This document shows, piece by piece, positions 4,153-55,173 of a stretch of DNA of 64,000 nt. The notes beneath the pieces are model-generated. The model was given only the letters and a program-made list of their open reading frames with translations. It made no database searches and was not told the origin of the DNA. The position numbers were made by a program, and so were the translations under genes. How positions within the stretch are numbered: position 1 is the stretch's first letter; each line of letters starts with the position of its first letter. The DNA is from Rhizobium sp. CIAT894 (lineage in GTDB: Bacteria > Pseudomonadota > Alphaproteobacteria > Rhizobiales > Rhizobiaceae), in contig NZ_CP020948.1 of the NCBI RefSeq assembly GCF_000172795.2, positions 124,001 through 188,000 of the forward strand. The letters run 5' to 3'.

Positions 4153-5061
4153 CTACTCCTTCGCCTCCTGCTGGCTCTGGAAGCGTAGGAAAATCACGGC
4201 CAAAGCGATCGTCAGAGTCGTTTGCACGACCGCGATGGCCGCGGCATAGCCGACGCGTTGTGTTGTGAAGAAGTGGTAGTAAGTCAGATAGGACGGCACG
4301 AGGGTGGAATTGTCGGGGCCGCCGGCGGTGATGACAAAGATTGGCGCAAAGACTTTAAGCGCTGCGATCAGCGTGGTCAGCACAACGACGAAAATCTCCG
4401 GCGCCAGAAGCGGGATGGTGATCGTCACCAGCCGGCTCCACCAGTTTGCCCCATCGAGCTCGGCGGCCTCGTAGAGAGAAGGGTCGATGCGCGAAAGACC
4501 CGCCATGAAAACCACCAGACAATAGCCGACCTGTATCCAGACGATAACGAGCGAGACGGCAGCAAGCGCGTATGTCGCATCGCCGATCCAGTTTTGGGCG
4601 AGATTATCGAGGCCGATGGCCTTTAGCGTAATGTTGATGACACCGACTGGATTGAGAATCCAGCCCCAGAGCACGCCCGCGACCGTTACGGGCAGAATCT
4701 GCGGTAAGTAAAAGCCGGCCCTGAAGAAGCTCGAGACCCATTCCCCGAATTGATCCCTGACATAGTCGAACAGCAAAGCGGCCAGCACTAGGCCGATGCA
4801 CACCGGTATCACGGTCATCGAGACGATGAACAGCAGCGTATGATACATCGACCCCCAGAATTGATCGTCCGTAAGCAGACGATGATAGTTCTGCAGGCCG
4901 ACCGGTCGCGGCGTGCCAACCCCTTTCCATGCCGTGAAGCTCAGCCCGAGATTAGCAAGCTGCGGTATGAGTACGATCAGGATGAAGCCGATCGCCCCTG
5001 GGATGAGGTAGAGGCTATAGCTTCGTGAACCGTCGCTCGATCGCTGGCTGGATATCGCCAT
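4153..5061 (-). CDS. carbohydrate ABC transporter permease (MalF type)
   Basis: Second channel subunit, 302 aa. A first membrane helix (LYLIPGAIGFILIVLIPQL) is followed by a short periplasmic loop and five more helices. The EAA loop reads EAAELDGANWWSRLVTITIP. Lies between the binding-protein gene (with a stem-loop in the gap) and the MalG-type partner. CUT1-family importers of mono- or oligosaccharides and polyols have this composition. Confidence 0.92.
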   Translation of the reverse strand: MAISSQRSSDGSRSYSLYLIPGAIGFILIVLIPQLANLGLSFTAWKGVGTPRPVGLQNYHRLLTDDQFWGSMYHTLLFIVSMTVIPVCIGLVLAALLFDYVRDQFGEWVSSFFRAGFYLPQILPVTVAGVLWGWILNPVGVINITLKAIGLDNLAQNWIGDATYALAAVSLVIVWIQVGYCLVVFMAGLSRIDPSLYEAAELDGANWWSRLVTITIPLLAPEIFVVVLTTLIAALKVFAPIFVITAGGPDNSTLVPSYLTYYHFFTTQRVGYAAAIAVVQTTLTIALAVIFLRFQSQQEAKE

Positions 5062-5088
5062 ATCATTCTTCCTTCAGCCTCGCATAAT

Positions 5089-5111
5089 GGGCTGCGCCGG
5101 AGGCGCAGCCC
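5089..5111 (-). other. intercistronic stem-loop between binding protein and permease genes
   Basis: Perfect 10-bp inverted repeat GGGCTGCGCC / GGCGCAGCCC with a 3-base loop, placed just after the stop of the solute-binding-protein gene and before the permease. No T-run follows. Such hairpins protect the upstream mRNA end or partly terminate, raising binding protein over membrane subunits (known for malEFG-like operons; inferred here). Confidence 0.75.
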
Positions 5112-5127
5112 AGCGTTCAAGGTCGCG

Positions 5128-6390
5128 CTACTGATTTTCCTGCGCGTCGTCGTAAACCTGCTTGATCTGTTCGACGAACTGCTCCGCGGTCAGGCTGCCC
5201 TGGAAGAGACCGGTGTCTTTCTGATTGAGCACGTCGTAGTAGCCGGGGACCGGCCAGTCAGGATAGAAACCGAGGCCGCTTTTGTCAGAGATCTGCTTGA
5301 AAACCGCTGCGGCGTTCTTGCCGATGGGGTTGGTGATGGCGGAAAGATCAGCGGCGATCGGCACGCCGCCGGCATTGCCGAGTTCAGCCTGGTACTTCGG
5401 CGACAAGGTCAGGCTGATCCACTCGGCGGCGAGATCGGGATTCTTGCTACCCTTGGGAACGACCCAGAGATTGCCTGTCGAGCCGACCGAATATTTCGGC
5501 GTCGGAATTACGAACTGACCCCACTTGAAGTCCTTGATGGTCGAGGCGAACGTGCCGAGATTCCACGTGCCCGAGACGTACATCGGCGCTTTGCCGGAGG
5601 TAAAGAGCAGAGCGGCGTCCGGGTCCTTCATGCCCGTGGAGTCCTTGTTGATGTAGCCCTTGCTGACCCAGTCGACCAATGTCTGCGCCGCATAGAGGTA
5701 GGGCGCGCCATCGAGGGGGGCCTTCAAACCCTGATAATTCTGGACCCAGGCGTCATCGGCCTTGGTATAGGCGAGAGAGGCAAGCAAGTGCTGGCCACTG
5801 GTGTCGATGGCGCCGAGCGCAAGAGGTGTGAGACCCTTCTGCTTGAAGGCTTCCATGCTGGCGACCCACTCTTCGAGCGTCGTCGGCGGCTTGAGTCCTG
5901 CCTTTTCGAACATGTCGATATTGTAGAAGCACGAAACATATTCGCCGAAGACCGAGACGCCCCAAACAGGGCCGGAGCCATAGATGCCCTTCTCGTCGTA
6001 ACGGCTCAGGACAAAATCGCCTTCGTTAAGGATCTTGTCCCAGCCTTCCTTCTTCACATAGGCATCCAGATTGGTCAGCAATCCCTGGCTTGCAACCAGG
6101 CCAGCGGTCGCATTGCCCTTGTTGTACTCGAGCACGTCAGGGGCCTGATCGGAATTGAGGATCATGCCGCCTGAGGCCTGCAACTGCTGAAAGGTCTTCT
6201 GCTCGAAGCTGACGGTGACGTCCGGATGTTTCGTCTTGAACTCCTCGAGCGCTTTCTTCCAGACAATGCCCTGAGCCGTGGTCGGCTCCTCGAACCACCA
6301 GATCTTGAAGGTCTTCTGCTCGGCATGGCCGATCGATGTCATCAGCATCGCTGTGCCGAGTGCTAGCGCAAGTCTTGCAATTCTTTTCAT
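5128..6390 (-). CDS. sugar ABC transporter substrate-binding protein (family 1)
   Basis: Periplasmic receptor, 420 aa. The N-terminus MKRIARLALALGTAMLMTSI ends in GHAEQ, a signal peptide with an AxA-like cleavage site near residue 23. The mature part has the extracellular solute-binding family 1 features: KIWWFEEPTT first strand, FKTKHPDVTV, a DVLEY block and GTWNLG late in the protein. It delivers substrate to the two permeases encoded next. The co-transcribed isomerase/epimerase and dehydrogenase point to a sugar or polyol; the exact ligand is not readable. Confidence 0.92.
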   Translation of the reverse strand: MKRIARLALALGTAMLMTSIGHAEQKTFKIWWFEEPTTAQGIVWKKALEEFKTKHPDVTVSFEQKTFQQLQASGGMILNSDQAPDVLEYNKGNATAGLVASQGLLTNLDAYVKKEGWDKILNEGDFVLSRYDEKGIYGSGPVWGVSVFGEYVSCFYNIDMFEKAGLKPPTTLEEWVASMEAFKQKGLTPLALGAIDTSGQHLLASLAYTKADDAWVQNYQGLKAPLDGAPYLYAAQTLVDWVSKGYINKDSTGMKDPDAALLFTSGKAPMYVSGTWNLGTFASTIKDFKWGQFVIPTPKYSVGSTGNLWVVPKGSKNPDLAAEWISLTLSPKYQAELGNAGGVPIAADLSAITNPIGKNAAAVFKQISDKSGLGFYPDWPVPGYYDVLNQKDTGLFQGSLTAEQFVEQIKQVYDDAQENQ

Positions 6391-47260: not shown

Positions 47261-47383
47261 ATGTGGTATTTCGCATGGATTCTCGGCCTGCCGCTGGCGG
47301 CCGCCTTCGCTGTCCTCAACGCCATGTGGTATGAGCTGATGGACGATGCAGCCAGGAAGAAGGCGCCCGAGACGCGCAAGTAG
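47261..47383 (+). CDS. cydX: cytochrome bd oxidase small subunit CydX
   Basis: 40-aa single-helix protein: MWYFAWILGLPLAAAFAVLNAMWYELMDD... begins with the MWYFxWILG signature of CydX/YbgT, which stabilises the oxidase haems. RBS GGGAGATGAAACA precedes the ATG. The stop codon TAG (47381-47383) is also the first half of a TAGAAA target duplication created by the 4.5-kb element that follows, so the protein is intact but its native terminator has been displaced to 51.9 kb. Confidence 0.93.
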   Translation: MWYFAWILGLPLAAAFAVLNAMWYELMDDAARKKAPETRK

Positions 47384-47386
47384 AAA
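47381..47386. repeat. target-site duplication, left copy (TAGAAA)
   Basis: TAGAAA directly before the GGGG of the left inverted repeat, identical to 51893-51898 immediately after the right one. It includes the cydX stop codon. Tn3-family insertions make 5-bp (sometimes 6-bp) duplications. Confidence 0.85.
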
Positions 47387-47424
47387 GGGGCTCCGTGGGC
47401 ATTTCTACAATAATACCCGCTAAG
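47387..47424 (+). repeat. left terminal inverted repeat (38 bp)
   Basis: Begins GGGGCTCCGTGGGCATTTC and ends ATACCCGCTAAG. Identical to the reverse complement of 51855-51892 at 33 of 38 positions (differences at 8, 17, 21, 24, 36). Length, GGGG start and CGCTAAG end are those of Tn3-family ends. Confidence 0.88.
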
Positions 47425-47585
47425 GGAATTGAAGTTGTTTGGATTGAAGCGGTTCGCACGGACTGGCTTTAGTCGCCGGTGAGCGTGATATGGGCTCATG
47501 GGAGCGGTGCGCCCTGGGAAAACCATACTCTGGCCTCGGACGTAATCGACAGCGCGGCTACGCAAGTGCACGAAGGTTGCGGGGC

Positions 47586-47697
47586 TAGAACAGGATGATT
47601 TTAGGCCCGGTCGGCCCAAAATCTGAATCCTGTTCTAAATTAAAGAGTTAGAGCATGATGTCATGAGAAAACCGCTCACACTTTTCGGCATCATGCT
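47586..47697 (+). repeat. RIME-like palindromic mosaic repeat
   Basis: Two hairpin units: TAGAACAGGAT...ATCCTGTTCTA and GAGCATGATG...CATCATGCT joined by AAATTAAAGAGTTA. About 90% identical to the inverted copy at 53981-54094. It lies inside the transposon and overlaps the end of the GGDEF fragment. Confidence 0.85.
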
Positions 47698-47776
47698 GGC
47701 GGCGCCGCCCGGCAGCTGCCTCCGTAACCACACGATTGCGGCCGGAGGTCTTAACGAGGTAGAGCGCCCGATCCGT
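47648..47776 (-). pseudogene. GGDEF-domain gene fragment (C-terminus only)
   Basis: The minus-strand frame reads TDRALYLVKTSGRNRVV, the standard last helix and strand of a GGDEF domain, then a tail ending within the repeat (KCERFSHDIML, stop at 47648-47650). Upstream of TDRALY the frame no longer resembles GGDEF, and 42 bp further the IS target duplication begins. The rest of the gene is absent from the window. It appears to be chromosomal DNA trapped in the transposon. Confidence 0.75.
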
Positions 47777-47817
47777 CCGCTGCCCGCAACCTCCAAAATA
47801 TGATAGCCCGCGGCACC

Positions 47818-47827
47818 CGGAGAAGGG
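47818..47827. repeat. IS target-site duplication, left copy
   Basis: CGGAGAAGGG, repeated exactly at 48993-49002 on the other side of the IS. Ten bases fits the 8-10 bp duplications of ISAs1-family elements. Confidence 0.9.
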
Positions 47828-48992
47828 CAGGGGAATCGCATATAGGCGGTAAGCAGTTGTTTTATTGAGGCAGATCGATTCAAAGGCTCTCTGTTGATTT
47901 GGAGGGTCGGATGGATCGATTTGCCGCCTGTTTTAAAGCTTTGCCCGACCCTCGGGGGCGCAATACGCGCCATCCGCTGATGTCGATCCTGTTCATTGCC
48001 ATTGCCGCGATCGTCTGCGGCGCCGAAAGCTGTGCCGACATGGCCGACTTCGGCATCTCCAAGAAGAGGTGGCTCAAGACGATCGTGCCGCTGCCCTACG
48101 GCATTCCCAGCCATGACACGTTCTCCACCGTATTCCGCTGCCTCAATCCGGATGCCTTCGAAGCCGCCTTCCGCCGCTTTACCGAAGCCTTTGCAAAAGG
48201 CATCGAAGGCGTGGTGGCGGTCGACGGCAAAGCGGTGCGCGGCGCCTATAAGCGCGGTGCCAAGGCGACGCCGCTGCACCTCGTCAACGTCTGGGCCGCC
48301 GGTTGCGGCCTGGTCATCGGCCAACAGACCGCACCGCGCCGCAACGAGGTGCAAGGCGTGCTCAAGGCGCTTGCGCTTCTGTCGCTCGAAGGCGCCATCG
48401 TCACGGCCGATGCTCTGCATTGCCGCGCCGACACGGCCCGCGCCATCCTGGCCACCGGCGGCGACTATGCCCTGGCGCTGAAAGGCAACCAACCCGGCCT
48501 GCTGGCCCAGGCGATTGCCCGCCTTGACGATATCGAGCCGCTCGACAGCATCCAGACCGCCGCCGAGAACGACCATGATCGCATCGACAGCCGCCGCGCC
48601 AGCATCGTCGCCGTCGATGATATTGACTTTCCCGGCCTGCAAGCCATCGGCTCCGTCGAGGCCACCAGCCGCCATGCCGATGGCCGCCTGACCAGCCATG
48701 TCCGCTACTTCCTGCTCTCCACGGTCATGTCGGCCGCCGCCCTCATCGAGGTGACCCGAACCCATTGGGAGATCGAAAACAAACTGCATTGGGTGCTCGA
48801 CGTCCAGTTCCGCGAGGATGCCGCCAGAAACAGAAAGGATCACGGGCCGGCAAACATCGCACTGCTGCGCAAGATCGCCCTCAACCTCATCCGATCCCAC
48901 CCAGATAAGGCATCCATCCGACGCAAAATCAAAAAGGCGGGATGGGACGATCAGTTCCTTATCTCCCTTATCGCTCATATGCGATAGCCCTG
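47828..48992 (+). mobile_element. ISAs1-family insertion sequence, complete (1165 bp)
   Basis: Imperfect terminal inverted repeats: left CAGGGGAATCGCATATAGGC (47828 on, to 47853), right reverse complement CAGGGCTATCGCATATGAGC (48992 back to 48967), matching 21 of 26 bases. One full transposase gene lies between them, and perfect 10-bp target duplications flank the element, so it moved in as a unit fairly recently. It sits 11 bp after the oxidoreductase stop, inside the larger transposon. Confidence 0.9.
47911..48987 (+). CDS. ISAs1 family transposase
   Basis: 358-aa DDE transposase. The N-terminal ISAs1/DDE_Tnp_1-associated region begins with DPRGRNTRHPLMSILFIAIAA; catalytic acidic residues are in VVAVDGKAVRG, IVTADALHC and, late, THWEIENKLHWVLDVQFRED. 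ATG has TTGGAGGGTCGG upstream. The stop TAG lies inside the right inverted repeat. Full length and undisrupted, so probably active. Confidence 0.93.
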   Translation: MDRFAACFKALPDPRGRNTRHPLMSILFIAIAAIVCGAESCADMADFGISKKRWLKTIVPLPYGIPSHDTFSTVFRCLNPDAFEAAFRRFTEAFAKGIEGVVAVDGKAVRGAYKRGAKATPLHLVNVWAAGCGLVIGQQTAPRRNEVQGVLKALALLSLEGAIVTADALHCRADTARAILATGGDYALALKGNQPGLLAQAIARLDDIEPLDSIQTAAENDHDRIDSRRASIVAVDDIDFPGLQAIGSVEATSRHADGRLTSHVRYFLLSTVMSAAALIEVTRTHWEIENKLHWVLDVQFREDAARNRKDHGPANIALLRKIALNLIRSHPDKASIRRKIKKAGWDDQFLISLIAHMR

Positions 48993-49002
48993 CGGAGAAG
49001 GG
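48993..49002. repeat. IS target-site duplication, right copy
   Basis: CGGAGAAGGG, exact copy of 47818-47827. Confidence 0.9.
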
Positions 49003-49013
49003 GATCTGTGCTC

Positions 49014-49907
49014 TCAAACCAACATCGACTGCTGGGCGGAGATACCTGCCGTCGCGCCTTGCGATATTGCCGTGGTGACCGAGTTCATGGCTGGGTTTGC
49101 GAGATCGCCGGCAGCGTAGATGCCCGGCATGCTGGTTTCGCGGCGCTCGTCGACCTTGAGGGCGATGCCGAAGGGCGTATTGACCGTGGCGAGGCCCAGT
49201 GATTCATGCAGGCTTGAGGACGGCTTGTTGCGCGGATGCGCGAACAGGATATCGACCCCGGCATTGCGGCCGCCCTCGAGATTAACGGTGGTGATATGGC
49301 CCCGGTGATGCGCGATTTCGGCGATCCGGCCATCAACGACAGGTATGTTGCGGCGCGCCAGATCGGCGCGGATATCGGGTGCAATGTCGTGACCATCGGC
49401 GAAGACCGTCAACGTGTCGGTCCAATCCTGGTACAGCCTGACATAATTGTGCGACGGCGGACCGGACCAGACGAGGCCCCAATGCTGGTCGGCGACTTCA
49501 AAGCCATCGCAATAGGGGCAGGGCACGATGGACGTGCCCCAGCTTTCGGCAAAACCGGGAACATCAGGCATCTGGTCGGCAACGCCGTAGCTCAGGATCA
49601 GGCGGCGCGCTCCAAGACTTTCGCCATCGCCAGTGAGGACGGAGAAGTCGTCGATGGCGCCGGAGATGCTGTCGGCTCGGGCATTGACCAGCTTGACAGT
49701 AGGATAACGCGCCAACTGCTGCCGCGCCTCGGCCAGGATGTCCAGCGGCGGCTTGTGATCGTGGCCGAGCAGACCATGCGAGTGGCCGGCGAAACGATTG
49801 CGCGGCAGGCCGGTATCGAGAATGGTGGCCTTGCGGCGGGCACGGCCGAGTTGCAGGGCAGCGGCGAGGCCGGCAAAGCTGCCGCCGATGATGATGACGT
49901 CATCCAT
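49014..49907 (-). CDS. thioredoxin-reductase-like FAD/NAD(P) oxidoreductase
   Basis: 297 aa. N-terminal FAD motif VIIIGGSFAGLAAALQLG, redox pair Cys130-Pro-Tyr-Cys133 in PCPYCDGFE, and C-terminal GIYAAGDLANPAMNSVTTAISQG for the second FAD segment. A CxxC at this place marks the low-molecular-weight thioredoxin reductase fold, but the NAD(P) motif (LVWSGPPSHN) is unlike the usual GxGxxA, so the electron donor is uncertain. ATG at 49907 follows GGAGCTTATCACC. It is transposon cargo, divergent from the TetR regulator; possibly a detoxifying reductase. Confidence 0.88.
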   Translation of the reverse strand: MDDVIIIGGSFAGLAAALQLGRARRKATILDTGLPRNRFAGHSHGLLGHDHKPPLDILAEARQQLARYPTVKLVNARADSISGAIDDFSVLTGDGESLGARRLILSYGVADQMPDVPGFAESWGTSIVPCPYCDGFEVADQHWGLVWSGPPSHNYVRLYQDWTDTLTVFADGHDIAPDIRADLARRNIPVVDGRIAEIAHHRGHITTVNLEGGRNAGVDILFAHPRNKPSSSLHESLGLATVNTPFGIALKVDERRETSMPGIYAAGDLANPAMNSVTTAISQGATAGISAQQSMLV

Positions 49908-50054
49908 GGTGATAAGCTCCGTGCTGTTGAGAGAGTGTGATTGGCTGAGCCGTGGCGCGTCTCGTCCACCGATACGCATCGATATGGCCAAGCGGCTTAG
50001 AGAAACTCGATCTGAGGGACAGGATAAAATCCGTTCTTTGGCTTGCATATTTCA

Positions 50055-50090
50055 GATACTGCATGGTATCGTAAACGTGAATAACGATAC
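50055..50090. promoter_or_regulatory. TetR-type operator (GATAC/GTATC half-sites)
   Basis: GTATCGT-N11-ACGATAC (50066-50090) is a perfect 7-bp inverted repeat; GATAC-N6-GTATC (50055-50070) overlaps it. Both lie in the 203-bp gap between the divergent oxidoreductase and TetR genes, 20 bp before the regulator start. Confidence 0.65.
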
Positions 50091-50110
50091 TGTCAAGGAT
50101 CTTAATAGTC

Positions 50111-50758
50111 GTGACCGAAAATAGTCGAGGCCGGCGCGGCCGGCCAGTCAACGAGGCGCTTGGCCAAACGATAGTCGACGCAGCATACGAACTCTTTGTG
50201 GAATTGGGTTTTCAAGCGACGACCTTGGACAAGGTCACCCAGCGCGCGAAGATATCCAAGCTCAGCATCTATCGGCACTTCGAGAGCAAGGAGGCGCTGT
50301 TCGGCGCGGCCGTCGCCGCCCGCTGCCATCAGTTTGCACCACAAGCCCTTTTTGAAGGGGTCGACGGTTCGGCCGAAGAGCAGCTCATGGCGGTGGGATC
50401 ATCCCTGCTTCGCACGCTGTTGAGCCCGGACGTCCGCAGTGTCGAAGCCATGGTCATGGCCGACAAGACGAATCAAAAGTCGTTGAGCAAGCTCTATTAC
50501 GAAGCCGGCCCCGCCCATGTCATCGCGCAAATCGAGGCCGTGTTGCGTCAGTTGCACGCGAAGGCGGTTCTGAACGTGCCCGATCCTCTTCAGTCCGCCC
50601 GCTTGTTTGGCGCGCTTATCAAAGGATCCGATCTCCTGATTATTGCGCGCTTCGATCAGGCAAGAGCAGAGGACGACAACGAAATCGAATCCTATTGCCG
50701 CTCGGCCGTCGCCATGTTCATCGCCGCGCACCGTGGCAGCGACCACGCGGGCGGATAG
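50111..50758 (+). CDS. TetR/AcrR family transcriptional regulator
   Basis: 215 aa. HTH domain in the first 65 residues: IVDAAYELFVELGFQATTLD then KISKLSIYRHFESKEALFGA, the typical TetR recognition helix pattern. The C-terminal ligand domain is helical with a LLSPDVRSVEAMVMADKTN segment. The start is GTG at 50111. It lies between the divergent oxidoreductase and the downstream methyltransferase (35 nt gap) and probably represses both through the GTATC half-sites. Confidence 0.9.
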   Translation: MTENSRGRRGRPVNEALGQTIVDAAYELFVELGFQATTLDKVTQRAKISKLSIYRHFESKEALFGAAVAARCHQFAPQALFEGVDGSAEEQLMAVGSSLLRTLLSPDVRSVEAMVMADKTNQKSLSKLYYEAGPAHVIAQIEAVLRQLHAKAVLNVPDPLQSARLFGALIKGSDLLIIARFDQARAEDDNEIESYCRSAVAMFIAAHRGSDHAGG

Positions 50759-50792
50759 CCTAGTCAAGAATGGATCAGAACAAGGATATGGC

Positions 50793-51656
50793 ATGGCAGA
50801 GGAAAATGTTTATCAGGTAGCTGACTGGAATGGCCAAAGCGGGGAGCGCTGGGTCGCTTACCAGGCCCGGCTCGATGCCATGATGGTGGTGTTCGGCCAG
50901 GCCGCGATCGAAGCCGCCGCGCCCGCCACGGGTGAGCGCGTGCTGGACGTCGGCTGCGGCGCGGGAGCGTCTAGCCTGGCTTTGGCCGCCCGCGTCGGCG
51001 CGGGGGGCCAAGTGCTGGGCGTAGACATATCCGAGCCGCTGATCGGCAGAGCGCGCGTATTAGCTCCGCAGGACACGCCGGTCTTGTTCCAGGTGGCCGA
51101 CGCCAGCAGCACCGAGTTGCCCGAGGGCGCGTTCGACATCCTGTTCTCGCGCTTCGGAGTGATGTTCTTTGACGATCCGACAGGGGCGTTCGCCCATATG
51201 CGCCGTGCGCTCAAGCCGGGCGGGCGGGTCGCTTTCGTCTGCTGGCGGGGCATGGCCGAGAACGATTGGGTGCGCTTGCCGATGGGCGCGATGAAGGGCA
51301 TCCTCCCGCCGACGGCGCCGCCCGATCCCGAAGCGCCCGGCCCGTTCTCGTTCGGCGATCAGGGGCGGGTGGCGCGTATTCTGACGGCGGCTGGCTTCAC
51401 CGATATCGCTATCGCGCCCTTCGATGCCTCCATCCCGTTCGGCGAGGGCGGGACGCGGGACGCGGCGATCGACGACGCGGTGGAGATGACACTCGAGGTC
51501 GGCCCGCTGGCGCGCGCTCTCGCTGATCAGCCCGACGACATCCGCGCCCGCGCCTCGGCCGCGGTTCGTGCCGCCTTCGCGGGCTGCCCCGGTGAGCGGT
51601 CGGTGATGATCGACGGCGCGGCGTGGATCGTCACGGCGCGCAATCCGGCAAGCTGA
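50793..51656 (+). CDS. class I SAM-dependent methyltransferase
   Basis: 287 aa. SAM-binding motif I VLDVGCGAGAS at residues 50-60, GVDISEPLIGRAR for the acidic loop, FDILFSRFGVMFFDDP for motif II and RRALKPGGRVAFVCWR for motif III; UbiE-like general methyltransferase. ATG at 50793 has AAGGA upstream. Follows the TetR gene in the same direction. Substrate unknown; methylation of a toxic or signalling small molecule, paired with the reductase, is a reasonable guess. Confidence 0.87.
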   Translation: MAEENVYQVADWNGQSGERWVAYQARLDAMMVVFGQAAIEAAAPATGERVLDVGCGAGASSLALAARVGAGGQVLGVDISEPLIGRARVLAPQDTPVLFQVADASSTELPEGAFDILFSRFGVMFFDDPTGAFAHMRRALKPGGRVAFVCWRGMAENDWVRLPMGAMKGILPPTAPPDPEAPGPFSFGDQGRVARILTAAGFTDIAIAPFDASIPFGEGGTRDAAIDDAVEMTLEVGPLARALADQPDDIRARASAAVRAAFAGCPGERSVMIDGAAWIVTARNPAS

Positions 51657-51760
51657 CAGGGATTGATAAGGGGAGACGCCCCGTCTCGATGGCTCGGCAT
51701 GGCCCTGACGCGATCGTCACCGCTTGCGGCCGGAACGCAGGGGAGGTACGGCGGCGGGCT

Positions 51761-51895
51761 TTTGTCCCATTAATTTATATCGCGCTTATCGGCGACTACC
51801 TTTGGAACAAAATTAACCGCCCCCTCGAACGATTCAGGACAATCCGCGCTAACCCTCAGCGGGTATTAGTGCAGACATGCCCACAGAGCCCCTAG
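51761..51895 (+). pseudogene. Tn3-family transposase, C-terminal remnant
   Basis: The frame contains IALIGDYLWNKINRPLERFR, matching the INLTGDYLW...(K)FRPLR end of Tn3-family TnpA, and runs through the right inverted repeat to a TAG supplied by the target duplication. Nothing of the remaining ~900 residues is present; upstream is the methyltransferase. It fixes the orientation and family of the element. Confidence 0.75.
51855..51892 (-). repeat. right terminal inverted repeat (38 bp)
   Basis: Reverse complement begins GGGGCTCTGTGGGCATGTC and ends ATACCCGCTGAG. Pairs with 47387-47424 at 33 of 38 positions. Confidence 0.88.
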
Positions 51896-51898
51896 AAA
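51893..51898. repeat. target-site duplication, right copy (TAGAAA)
   Basis: TAGAAA immediately outside the right inverted repeat; in the uninterrupted locus this would be the cydX stop codon plus three bases. Confidence 0.85.
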
Positions 51899-53980: not shown

Positions 53981-54094
53981 GAGCATGATGTCGAAAAGTG
54001 TGAGCGGGTTTTGGACGACATCATGCTCTAACTATTTAATTTAGAACAGGATTCAGATTTTAGGCCGGGTCGACCTAAAATCATCCTGTTCTAG
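53981..54094 (-). repeat. RIME-like palindromic mosaic repeat
   Basis: Inverted copy of the repeat at 47586-47697 (~90% identity): GAGCATGATGTCGAAAAGTG...GACATCATGCTC followed by TAGAACAGGATTC...ATCCTGTTCTA. It occupies nearly the whole gap between the ATPase and the fused oxidoreductase; its end gives the ATPase stop codon. Confidence 0.85.
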
Positions 54095-55173
54095 CGAAGC
54101 CGTTTGCCGGCGCCGTCGAAAAGGAATGTGTGGCGGGCGGGAAGGCCGACGGTCAGCGTCTCGCGATTGCCTGTTGTGCGCGATTCCGGCCGCTCGATGA
54201 TCAGCTGCTCGCTGCCAATGGCGGCATAGATGTAGCTGGTGTTGCCGAGATGCTCGGCAACGTCGATGGCGACGGTGAGATCGGCATCGCCAGCACCTGC
54301 ATCGACGAAATGTTCGGGACGGATGCCGAGCGTCACCTTCGCGCCGGCTTCGACGGGATCGGCAATGGGCAGCGGCAGGCGCGTATTGGCATCGCTTTCC
54401 AGCGCGATCACCGCCCTGCCCGGCTGGGCCTCGACCACCACGGCCTTGAGGAAATTCATCTTTGGCGAGCCGACAAAGCCGGCGACGAACTGGTTGGCCG
54501 GGTCGTCGTAAAGGTCGAGCGGCGCGCCGATCTGCTCGATATTGCCGGCGCGCAGCACGACGATCCTGTCGGCAAGCGTCATCGCTTCCGTCTGGTCGTG
54601 GGTGACGTAGATCATCGTCGTGCCGAGCTGTTTATGCAGCCTGGAGATTTCGACGCGCATCTGCACGCGCAGTTCGGCATCGAGGTTCGACAAGGGCTCG
54701 TCGAACAGGAAGACCTCAGGTTCGCGCACGATGGCGCGGCCGATCGCGACGCGCTGGCGCTGACCGCCAGAAAGCTGCTTCGGCCGCCGCTTCATCAGCT
54801 CGGTGATCTGCAGGATCTCGGCGACATGACGCACACGCCGCTCGGTATCGGCCTTTGGATTGCCGTTCATGCGCAGGCCGAAGCTCAGATTCTCTTCGAC
54901 GGTCAGATGCGGATAGAGTGCATAGGACTGGAAGACCATGGCGATGCCGCGGTCGGCCGGCTCGACGTCGTTGACGACCCTGCCGCCGATCCGAAGCTCG
55001 CCTGAGGTGATGTCCTCGAGACCGGCGATCATCCTGAGCAGCGTGGACTTGCCGCAGCCGGAAGGACCGACGAAGACGACGAATTCGCCGTCCTTCACCT
55101 CCAGATTGGCGCCGTGGATGATCTCGAAGCCGCCGAAACGCTTGATGATGTTGGTGAGTGAAAGCTCTGCCAT
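54091..55173 (-). CDS. sugar ABC transporter ATP-binding protein (UgpC/MsmK type)
   Basis: 360 aa. Walker A GPSGCGKST at 36-44, Q-loop VFQSYALYPHL, signature LSGGQRQR, Walker B FLFDEPLSNLDA, switch His VTHDQTEAM, TOBE region with GIRPEHFVDAG. The stop codon overlaps the end of the RIME repeat. Last transporter gene of the 58.2-to-54.1 kb operon. Confidence 0.92.
   Translation of the reverse strand: MAELSLTNIIKRFGGFEIIHGANLEVKDGEFVVFVGPSGCGKSTLLRMIAGLEDITSGELRIGGRVVNDVEPADRGIAMVFQSYALYPHLTVEENLSFGLRMNGNPKADTERRVRHVAEILQITELMKRRPKQLSGGQRQRVAIGRAIVREPEVFLFDEPLSNLDAELRVQMRVEISRLHKQLGTTMIYVTHDQTEAMTLADRIVVLRAGNIEQIGAPLDLYDDPANQFVAGFVGSPKMNFLKAVVVEAQPGRAVIALESDANTRLPLPIADPVEAGAKVTLGIRPEHFVDAGAGDADLTVAIDVAEHLGNTSYIYAAIGSEQLIIERPESRTTGNRETLTVGLPARHTFLFDGAGKRLR

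Follow-up and report, generated by a model that had tools for sequence, protein, structure and literature searches.

The stretch of DNA analyzed here (the window) comprises 64,000 nucleotides of Rhizobium sp. CIAT894 (contig NZ_CP020948.1, positions 124,001 to 188,000) and contains, at 47387..51892, a unit bounded by 38-bp terminal inverted repeats (IRs) that carries three cargo genes for a flavin adenine dinucleotide (FAD)-dependent oxidoreductase, a TetR-family regulator, and a methyltransferase. The unit is classed as the relic of a composite Tn3-family transposon, a kind of element that is already known (Tn3 composite, TIME-COMP-like), and it is probable that it is the fossil of a transposon that spread together with its transposase gene, tnpA, and was then stranded separately at each site. 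The ends are flanked by target duplications, the insertion point is found empty in relatives, and full-length Tn3 relatives exist; the left-arm deletions differ between sites, and the right junction is common to most of the copies compared. The features that define the unit and its insertion point are as follows.

47261..47383, + strand: cydX, whose stop codon TAG begins the duplication; the gene bears this name in the annotations of R. acidisoli FH23 and R. leguminosarum WSM2304
47381..47386, no strand: left target duplication TAGAAA (empty-site comparison)
47387..47424, + strand: left 38-bp terminal IR (inverted-pair search, alignment)
47387..47559, - strand: remnant of a tnpA 3' end at the left, IR included; its alignment spans arm positions 1-228 and has an internal gap
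51764..51854, + strand: right tnpA 3'-end remnant, TnpA residues about 950-979
51855..51892, - strand: right 38-bp terminal IR (inverted-pair search, alignment)
51893..51898, no strand: right target duplication TAGAAA (empty-site comparison)

The two IRs face each other, are identical at 33 of 38 positions, and are directly adjoined on their outer sides by TAGAAA, in agreement with an earlier reading of this DNA made from the letters alone (the sequence-only reading). They start with GGGG, as do the closely similar ends of about 38 bp in intact Tn3-family members. When the two 300-bp end regions were resampled 200 times under a first-order Markov model, no pair of 38-mers agreed at more than 26 positions, vs the 33 observed. 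Ten other inverted pairs in the window have a lower BLAST E-value and are mostly longer and more diverged; the pair is distinguished by its form and its flanks, not by its rank among the inverted pairs of the window. When the left end was searched against the whole genome of the strain (G000, 6.66 Mb, with the window on contig C2), four matches were obtained, namely itself (E 4.9e-61), the right IR (E 4.0e-7), and two at E 0.7; since only these last two are further matches, the ends are no dispersed repeats in this genome. The duplication starts with the stop codon of cydX, and the gene was kept intact. Both ends of the unit align to the 3' end of tnpA, inverted relative to each other. The TnpA scrap touching the right end, recognized in the sequence-only reading, proved to be 72% identical over 32 amino acids to an intact relative (E 2.6e-7); its counterpart on the minus strand at the left end had been missed. 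Pfam and NCBIfam scans assigned no family to the two end open reading frames (ORFs), the right tnpA scrap included. The Tn3 transposase (DDE_Tnp_Tn3) is represented in the window unit by these 3' remnants only, at both ends; tnpR gave no match inside the unit, and no res site was searched for. The unit is a relic, not an autonomous member of the Tn3 family.

The left flank (287 bp) has a match with an E-value of 1e-20 or lower in 132 of the genus's 148 genomes, and 20 of them, mostly the best-matching, were fetched for comparison. An empty site, in which a single TAGAAA is followed by the right-flank sequence, was present in five of the 20 (G057, G083, G034, G003, and G033), as had been predicted for a transposed unit. 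Thirteen lack the unit and have an altered sequence at the insertion spot, one (G112, BT03 plasmid) has other DNA there, and one (G036) carries the unit, complete at 3,319 bp with both IRs and both TAGAAA copies and without the insertion sequence (IS) nested in the window copy. Two plasmids, from R. acidisoli FH23 and R. leguminosarum WSM2304, also show TAGAAA and a left IR at this position; the right IR was not found at these two copies. Window and G036 are 88.9% identical in the left 1-kb flank, 91.8% in the right 1-kb flank, and 91.4% in the cargo, a similarity of flank and cargo that would follow from a single old insertion that was either passed down since or transferred along with the flanking DNA.

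Complete Tn3 relatives with the same kind of ends were identified in G036 (3,808 bp) and on pAtCFBP6624 of A. tumefaciens CFBP6624 (3,810 bp, with an ATGGA duplication), both with tnpR and a tnpA of about 990 amino acids, so that the assignment of the unit to the Tn3 family, made at first from its ends, holds. A 144-bp left-end query matched 175 plasmid records, 41 of which cover at least 80% of it; among the listed matches with this coverage, many are Tn3 family transposase in alphaproteobacteria, and 92 of the 175 are Escherichia records outside the 50 listed. Of eight full Tn3 copies examined, three, in G036 (L099, L100, and L109), were without matching duplications; TAGCT, which flanks L099 on the tnpA side, matches AGCTA, which flanks L100 on the tnpR side, as though copies lying on different contigs had recombined.

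The cargo also occurs at other sites. Outer ends were scanned for near the cargo in 35 fetched loci and the window (36 rows, in which two strains are entered twice, as L011/L076 and L013/L085, and L098 has the methyltransferase part only), and at least one was recognized in 12 rows. Apart from TAGAAA in the window and G036, exact duplications were AGGTC in G017 (both ends) and TTACA in BT03, consistent with the 5-bp, sometimes 6-bp, target duplication of the family; N324 shares the site of G017, and its right IR was not found. For 13 loci, the left arm was placed on the coordinates of the M. lupini Tn3 arm and of the S. fredii GR64 spacer. At site A (cydX), the window, G036, and FH23 have arm position 228 joined to spacer position 666, and WSM2304 has 82 joined to 732. 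Site B (N324 and G017) has 210/211 joined to 905/909, 953 to 1005, and 1048 to spacer 788; site C (BT03) has 23 to 64 and 111 to 774; site D (G084, G080, and R. binae) has 271 to 2870 with further differences after it; and site J (G081) has 321 to spacer 287. None of these deletion junctions is common to any two of the five sites with a left outer end; within a site, the junction is common to three of four strains at A, both at B, and all three at D. Because the five sites share no left-arm junction, spread probably preceded the loss of tnpA. At site D, R. binae BLR195 (L054, 4001-5364) has a 1,364-bp derivative with both ends and pieces of the spacer, the FAD gene, and the methyltransferase end, most of the cargo having been lost.

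The complete locus of S. fredii GR64 (L204) has kept the 5' part of tnpA, tnpR, an inner IR, and the spacer beside the cargo, with 97.6% identity to M. lupini over 1,550 bp; S. americanum CFNEI73 has kept the spacer from position 452 on. GR64 and CFNEI73 are not comparable with the other loci for an outer-end junction. In GR64 and in the gapped M. lupini draft, the cargo adjoins a longer tnpA/tnpR arm that is partly deleted in the Rhizobium copies, and the idea that the cargo had replaced the transposase is thus not upheld. On the other side, ten strains (L009, L010, L012, L013/L085, L058, L075, L204, L122, L160, and L220), which belong to Rhizobium, Sinorhizobium, and Neorhizobium and include a Rhodospirillales metagenome-assembled genome and M. 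lupini, have a right tnpA piece that stops at parent position 184, and because of this common end point, the right side of the cassette was probably built once.

Taken in this way, the ancestor would have had a left Tn3 arm (outer IR, tnpA, tnpR, inner IR, and a short spacer) beside the oxidoreductase, TetR, and methyltransferase genes, and would have been closed on the right by a second, inverted tnpA 3' piece of about 184 bp ending in an outer IR of the same kind. By acting on the outer IR at each end, TnpA would mobilize the block in its entirety and create a target duplication of 5 or 6 bp. Insertion at the cydX stop codon in a common ancestor, or a donor, of the four lineages found with the unit at this site would have produced the TAGAAA duplication; the tnpA/tnpR arm would then have been deleted at this site, and independently at the others, stranding the cargo, and the ISAs1-family IS and a small dispersed repeat would have entered the left arm of the window copy later. 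A copy retaining the entire ancestral spacer was sought in 72,556 plasmid records, 13 of which match it, with only GR64 covering at least 80%. A portion of the spacer that separates the inner IR from the cargo (L204, 3256-3920) is similar, at 68.6-72.2% identity in 11 of the 13 matching records, to plasmid genes that mostly bear the annotation Y-family DNA polymerase, a hint that the composite may have been assembled on a plasmid.

Several observations weigh against this history. No recognizable outer end was present in 24 of the 36 cargo rows (window counted); four of the rows without an outer end (L012, L013, L085, and L098) still carry tnpA pieces. The duplication at site D is imperfect (AGATT vs AGTGT in G084 and G080, AGATT vs AGATG in R. 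binae), and no matching duplication was seen at site J in G081. For four copies, the alignment of the right tnpA piece ends earlier, at 143 (window), 163 (G081), 171 (BT03), and 178 (R. binae); these shorter alignments are taken as later change, and by eye the window, BT03, and R. binae share sequence beyond the right junction in an alignment that does not include G081. The search turned up no copy in which a single sequence without gaps contains the two outer ends, an open tnpA, and all of the cargo. In M. lupini, the reading frame of the Tn3 arm is broken near codon 474, and 100-N assembly gaps lie between the cargo pieces and make the cargo order unreadable; because of these gaps and the broken tnpA, we infer, and do not observe, that the ancestor was autonomous. 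GR64 is without the left outer end and the 3' part of tnpA there, and nothing in it matches the TetR stretch at the nucleotide level; the place of that stretch is taken by other DNA of about 1.07 kb (L204, about 5056-6126). Some part of the right-end junction is matched in 11 of 397 genomes sampled from the order, and more than 80% of it in only two (G000 and G017); in the plasmid records, six of 199 matching entries cover at least 80%. When the relatives of the methyltransferase were collected from the genome collection (the best 80 of at least 369 were kept, some of them duplicating genomes with G handles), tnpA/tnpR pieces or ends of this Tn3 subgroup were found in only six of the 80 loci (L110, L112, L113, L122, L160, and L180). 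With the right-end junction this rare and subgroup pieces in so few loci, other vehicles must carry the cargo elsewhere.

Another proposal is that most of the spread of the cargo is due to plasmids being transferred and larger segments recombining, the Tn3 ends being an incidental old frame. It would accommodate the occurrence of the cargo in alpha-, beta-, and gammaproteobacteria, the 74 of the best 80 loci without a subgroup tnpA/tnpR piece or end, and the flanks shared by several end-less rhizobial loci. Neither the exactness of the target duplications nor the empty cydX site is explained by it, and it is contradicted for this locus, where it is very improbable as the full account; for the cargo family as a whole, such a route is probably true alongside the transposon route. 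The end-less rows could also be taken to mean that the ends and TAGAAA were paired by chance, or are dispersed repeats of an ordinary kind, and that the cargo is native intergenic DNA, an explanation that is hardly credible given the empty sites with a single TAGAAA, the same unit elsewhere with other duplications, the resampling result, and the lack of further end copies in the strain's own genome.

A more serious competitor is a true non-autonomous passenger transposon, in the manner of a TIME-COMP, that lost tnpA first and was then moved in trans by a related Tn3 element. The window copy and that of G036 have kept their two outer IRs intact, and the latter genome has eight open copies of the cognate transposase gene; transposition of transposase-less units with Tn3 ends is reported (PMC4133298; PMC13367494). 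Such a passenger would carry the same deletion junction to new sites, and none is common among the five. Different deletions could have arisen before transposition in trans, and a loss of tnpA before movement in five separate lines is possible and needs more steps. We consider this order of events unlikely beside stranding after spread, in which the autonomy of the ancestor and the keeping of the cargo by selection would both be part of the history.

The sequence-only reading had further proposed that the unit could be mobilized in trans. Because G036 has open cognate transposase copies (eight, with 987-989 of 989 residues) in addition to a complete cargo element, such mobilization is possible in principle, and the copy in G036 may not be stranded; the five sites that share no left-arm junction are better explained by spread before the loss of tnpA. 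In the strain's own genome, a search with the parent TnpA found no intact cognate transposase, its matches being the right scrap and a 29%-identity fragment in a frame with a stop, and the Pfam Tn3 transposase family is represented by three fragments, none of which covers as many as 90 of the 389 profile positions. The copy in the window thus appears to be stranded for as long as no transposase is acquired.

From the left, the unit consists of the IR, the tnpA 3' remnant, the spacer split by a repeat of about 109 bp, the nested IS, the oxidoreductase, TetR, and methyltransferase genes, the second tnpA 3' remnant, and the right IR. The parts between the left remnant and the cargo are as follows.

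47564..47588, no strand: first part of the ancestral spacer, which lies upstream of the cargo (GR64 spacer 666-690)
47589..47697, no strand: nested dispersed repeat of about 109 bp, interrupting the left arm
47698..47827, no strand: ancestral spacer, second part (GR64 spacer 690-818)
47818..47827, no strand: left 10-bp duplication CGGAGAAGGG of the nested IS
47828..48992, + strand: nested ISAs1-family IS, with a transposase ORF at 47899-48987 (362 amino acids)
48993..49002, no strand: right 10-bp duplication CGGAGAAGGG of the nested IS

The dispersed repeat, putatively RIME-like, has a second copy in the window, seen as an inverted match of 47584-47697 to 53982-54095 (88.6% over 114 bp). The nested IS had escaped notice when the unit was described as having no transposase. 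Its transposase matches NF033564 (E 1.7e-97), and it has the transposase type, the terminal inverted pair, and the 10-bp duplication of the ISAs1 family, in which duplications are 8-10 bp long; it is unrelated to the Tn3 ends. Because seven copies with a listed identity of 100% were found in the strain's own genome, a recent amplification of this IS is suggested.

The cargo consists of three genes.

49014..49907, - strand: cargo 1, NAD(P)/FAD-dependent oxidoreductase with a CPYC motif, DepH/GliT-like (297 amino acids)
50111..50758, + strand: cargo 2, TetR/AcrR-family regulator (215 amino acids; PF00440, PF14246)
50793..51656, + strand: cargo 3, class I S-adenosylmethionine-dependent methyltransferase (287 amino acids; PF08241)

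Among known systems, the nearest counterparts of cargo 1 are the dithiol oxidases DepH, HlmI, GliT, and DnoP. By PDB ranking, not by a tree, the FAD protein is a CXXC flavoprotein whose similarity to DepH and GliT is greater than that to thioredoxin reductases of the ordinary kind. The ranking runs 3fbs, DepH (two sequences), 4ntd, 4fk1, GliT, and 7br0, followed by further thioredoxin reductases; 4ntd and 4fk1 were deposited under thioredoxin reductase names, and the best match, 3fbs, describes no function. The CPYC motif is common to DepH and the cargo protein, and the residue after it is Asp in the cargo protein vs His in 3fbs, DepH, and 4ntd (four alignments), which calls for caution about a dithiol-oxidase role. 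The methyltransferase has many weak relatives in many families, including a weak match to 5jgj (E 2.5e-5), presumably a gliotoxin methyltransferase. PADLOC gave no match for two of the proteins and one mad2 match (residues 36-154 of 287, in the methyltransferase region), and an anti-phage role for the cargo was set aside. DnoP, an enzyme of the DepH group in P. aeruginosa, reportedly detoxifies gliotoxin and related toxins (PMC11317636). The cargo may, more weakly argued than the transposon history, protect against disulfide or dithiol antimicrobials. No fixed fourth partner of the cargo was found in nine loci that have a gap between the oxidoreductase and methyltransferase genes, where the intervening ORFs differ from locus to locus and appear SDR-, hydrolase-, and SnoaL-like by eye, not by library search, so that the dithiol reading gains nothing from them. 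In these nine (L119, L132, L133, L135, L144, L124, L137, L134, and L151), the gene order is TetR-FAD-methyltransferase, with no TetR match in L124.

The cargo is widely distributed. At least part of the TetR-methyltransferase stretch is matched at E 1e-100 or better in 51 of the 148 genomes of the genus, and all three genes were matched in 38 of the best 80 loci, some of them in pieces in L180 and L127. The amino-acid identity of the cargo proteins to those of the window was compared with that of RecA in ten chosen genomes. For TetR, FAD protein, methyltransferase, and RecA, respectively, the values were 89, 84, 91, and 72% in Paraburkholderia L119; 89, 84, 90, and 73% in Cupriavidus L126; 82, 82, 83, and 71% in Pseudomonas L135; 85, 84, 87, and 70% in Pandoraea L139; and 87, 85, 87, and 71% in Pseudomonas L117. 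Since the cargo (82-91%) exceeds RecA (70-73%) in these five beta- and gammaproteobacteria, wide horizontal transfer of the cargo is indicated. The gap is small in the alphaproteobacteria L129 (86, 85, and 89 vs 82) and L123 (85, 84, and 87 vs 80); L125 has 82 for the FAD protein and 84 for the methyltransferase vs 75 for RecA, L128 has 83 for the methyltransferase vs 81, and L180 has two RecA matches (86 and 80) and a partial cargo.

Among known systems, the unit resembles a Tn3 unit transposon such as the 3,810-bp element of CFBP6624 in its similar 38-bp outer IRs, the homologous tnpA 3' end, and the short duplication, and differs in lacking tnpA and tnpR and in having outer ends that are both tnpA-side and inverted with the cargo between them. 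TIMEs and TIME-COMPs, as described in two reports, have 38-bp IRs and 5- or 6-bp duplications and move with a transposase supplied in trans (PMC4133298; PMC13367494). Like a TIME-COMP so described, the unit has no transposase of its own and carries foreign genes between end pieces with Tn3-type 38-bp outer IRs; unlike it, the ends are decayed tnpA ends instead of complete TIMEs with their own IR pairs, and the site-specific deletions suggest that the unit was not transposase-free during its spread. A TIME-COMP with two complete TIMEs was ruled out, there being only two outer IRs and no inner pair in the window and G036. A narrow literature search returned no description of a rhizobial element of this kind, from which no absence from print is claimed.

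Two aspects are of interest, the repeated stranding that the junctions point to and, with less weight, the predicted role against dithiol toxins. Joined together, they give the tentative and rather doubtful picture of a three-gene disulfide/dithiol detoxification module, with a dithiol oxidase-like flavoenzyme, a methyltransferase, and TetR as its switch, that would have spread through rhizobia on a composite Tn3 and been repeatedly fixed by independent transposase loss, a convergent taming. Cargo units without a transposase are usually read as hitch-hikers moving in trans; five sites with different deletions in one ancestral arm suggest another order, in which spread came first and the engine was then lost while the cargo was kept, and the relatives of the flavoenzyme point to a testable role in defense against disulfide toxins in soil.

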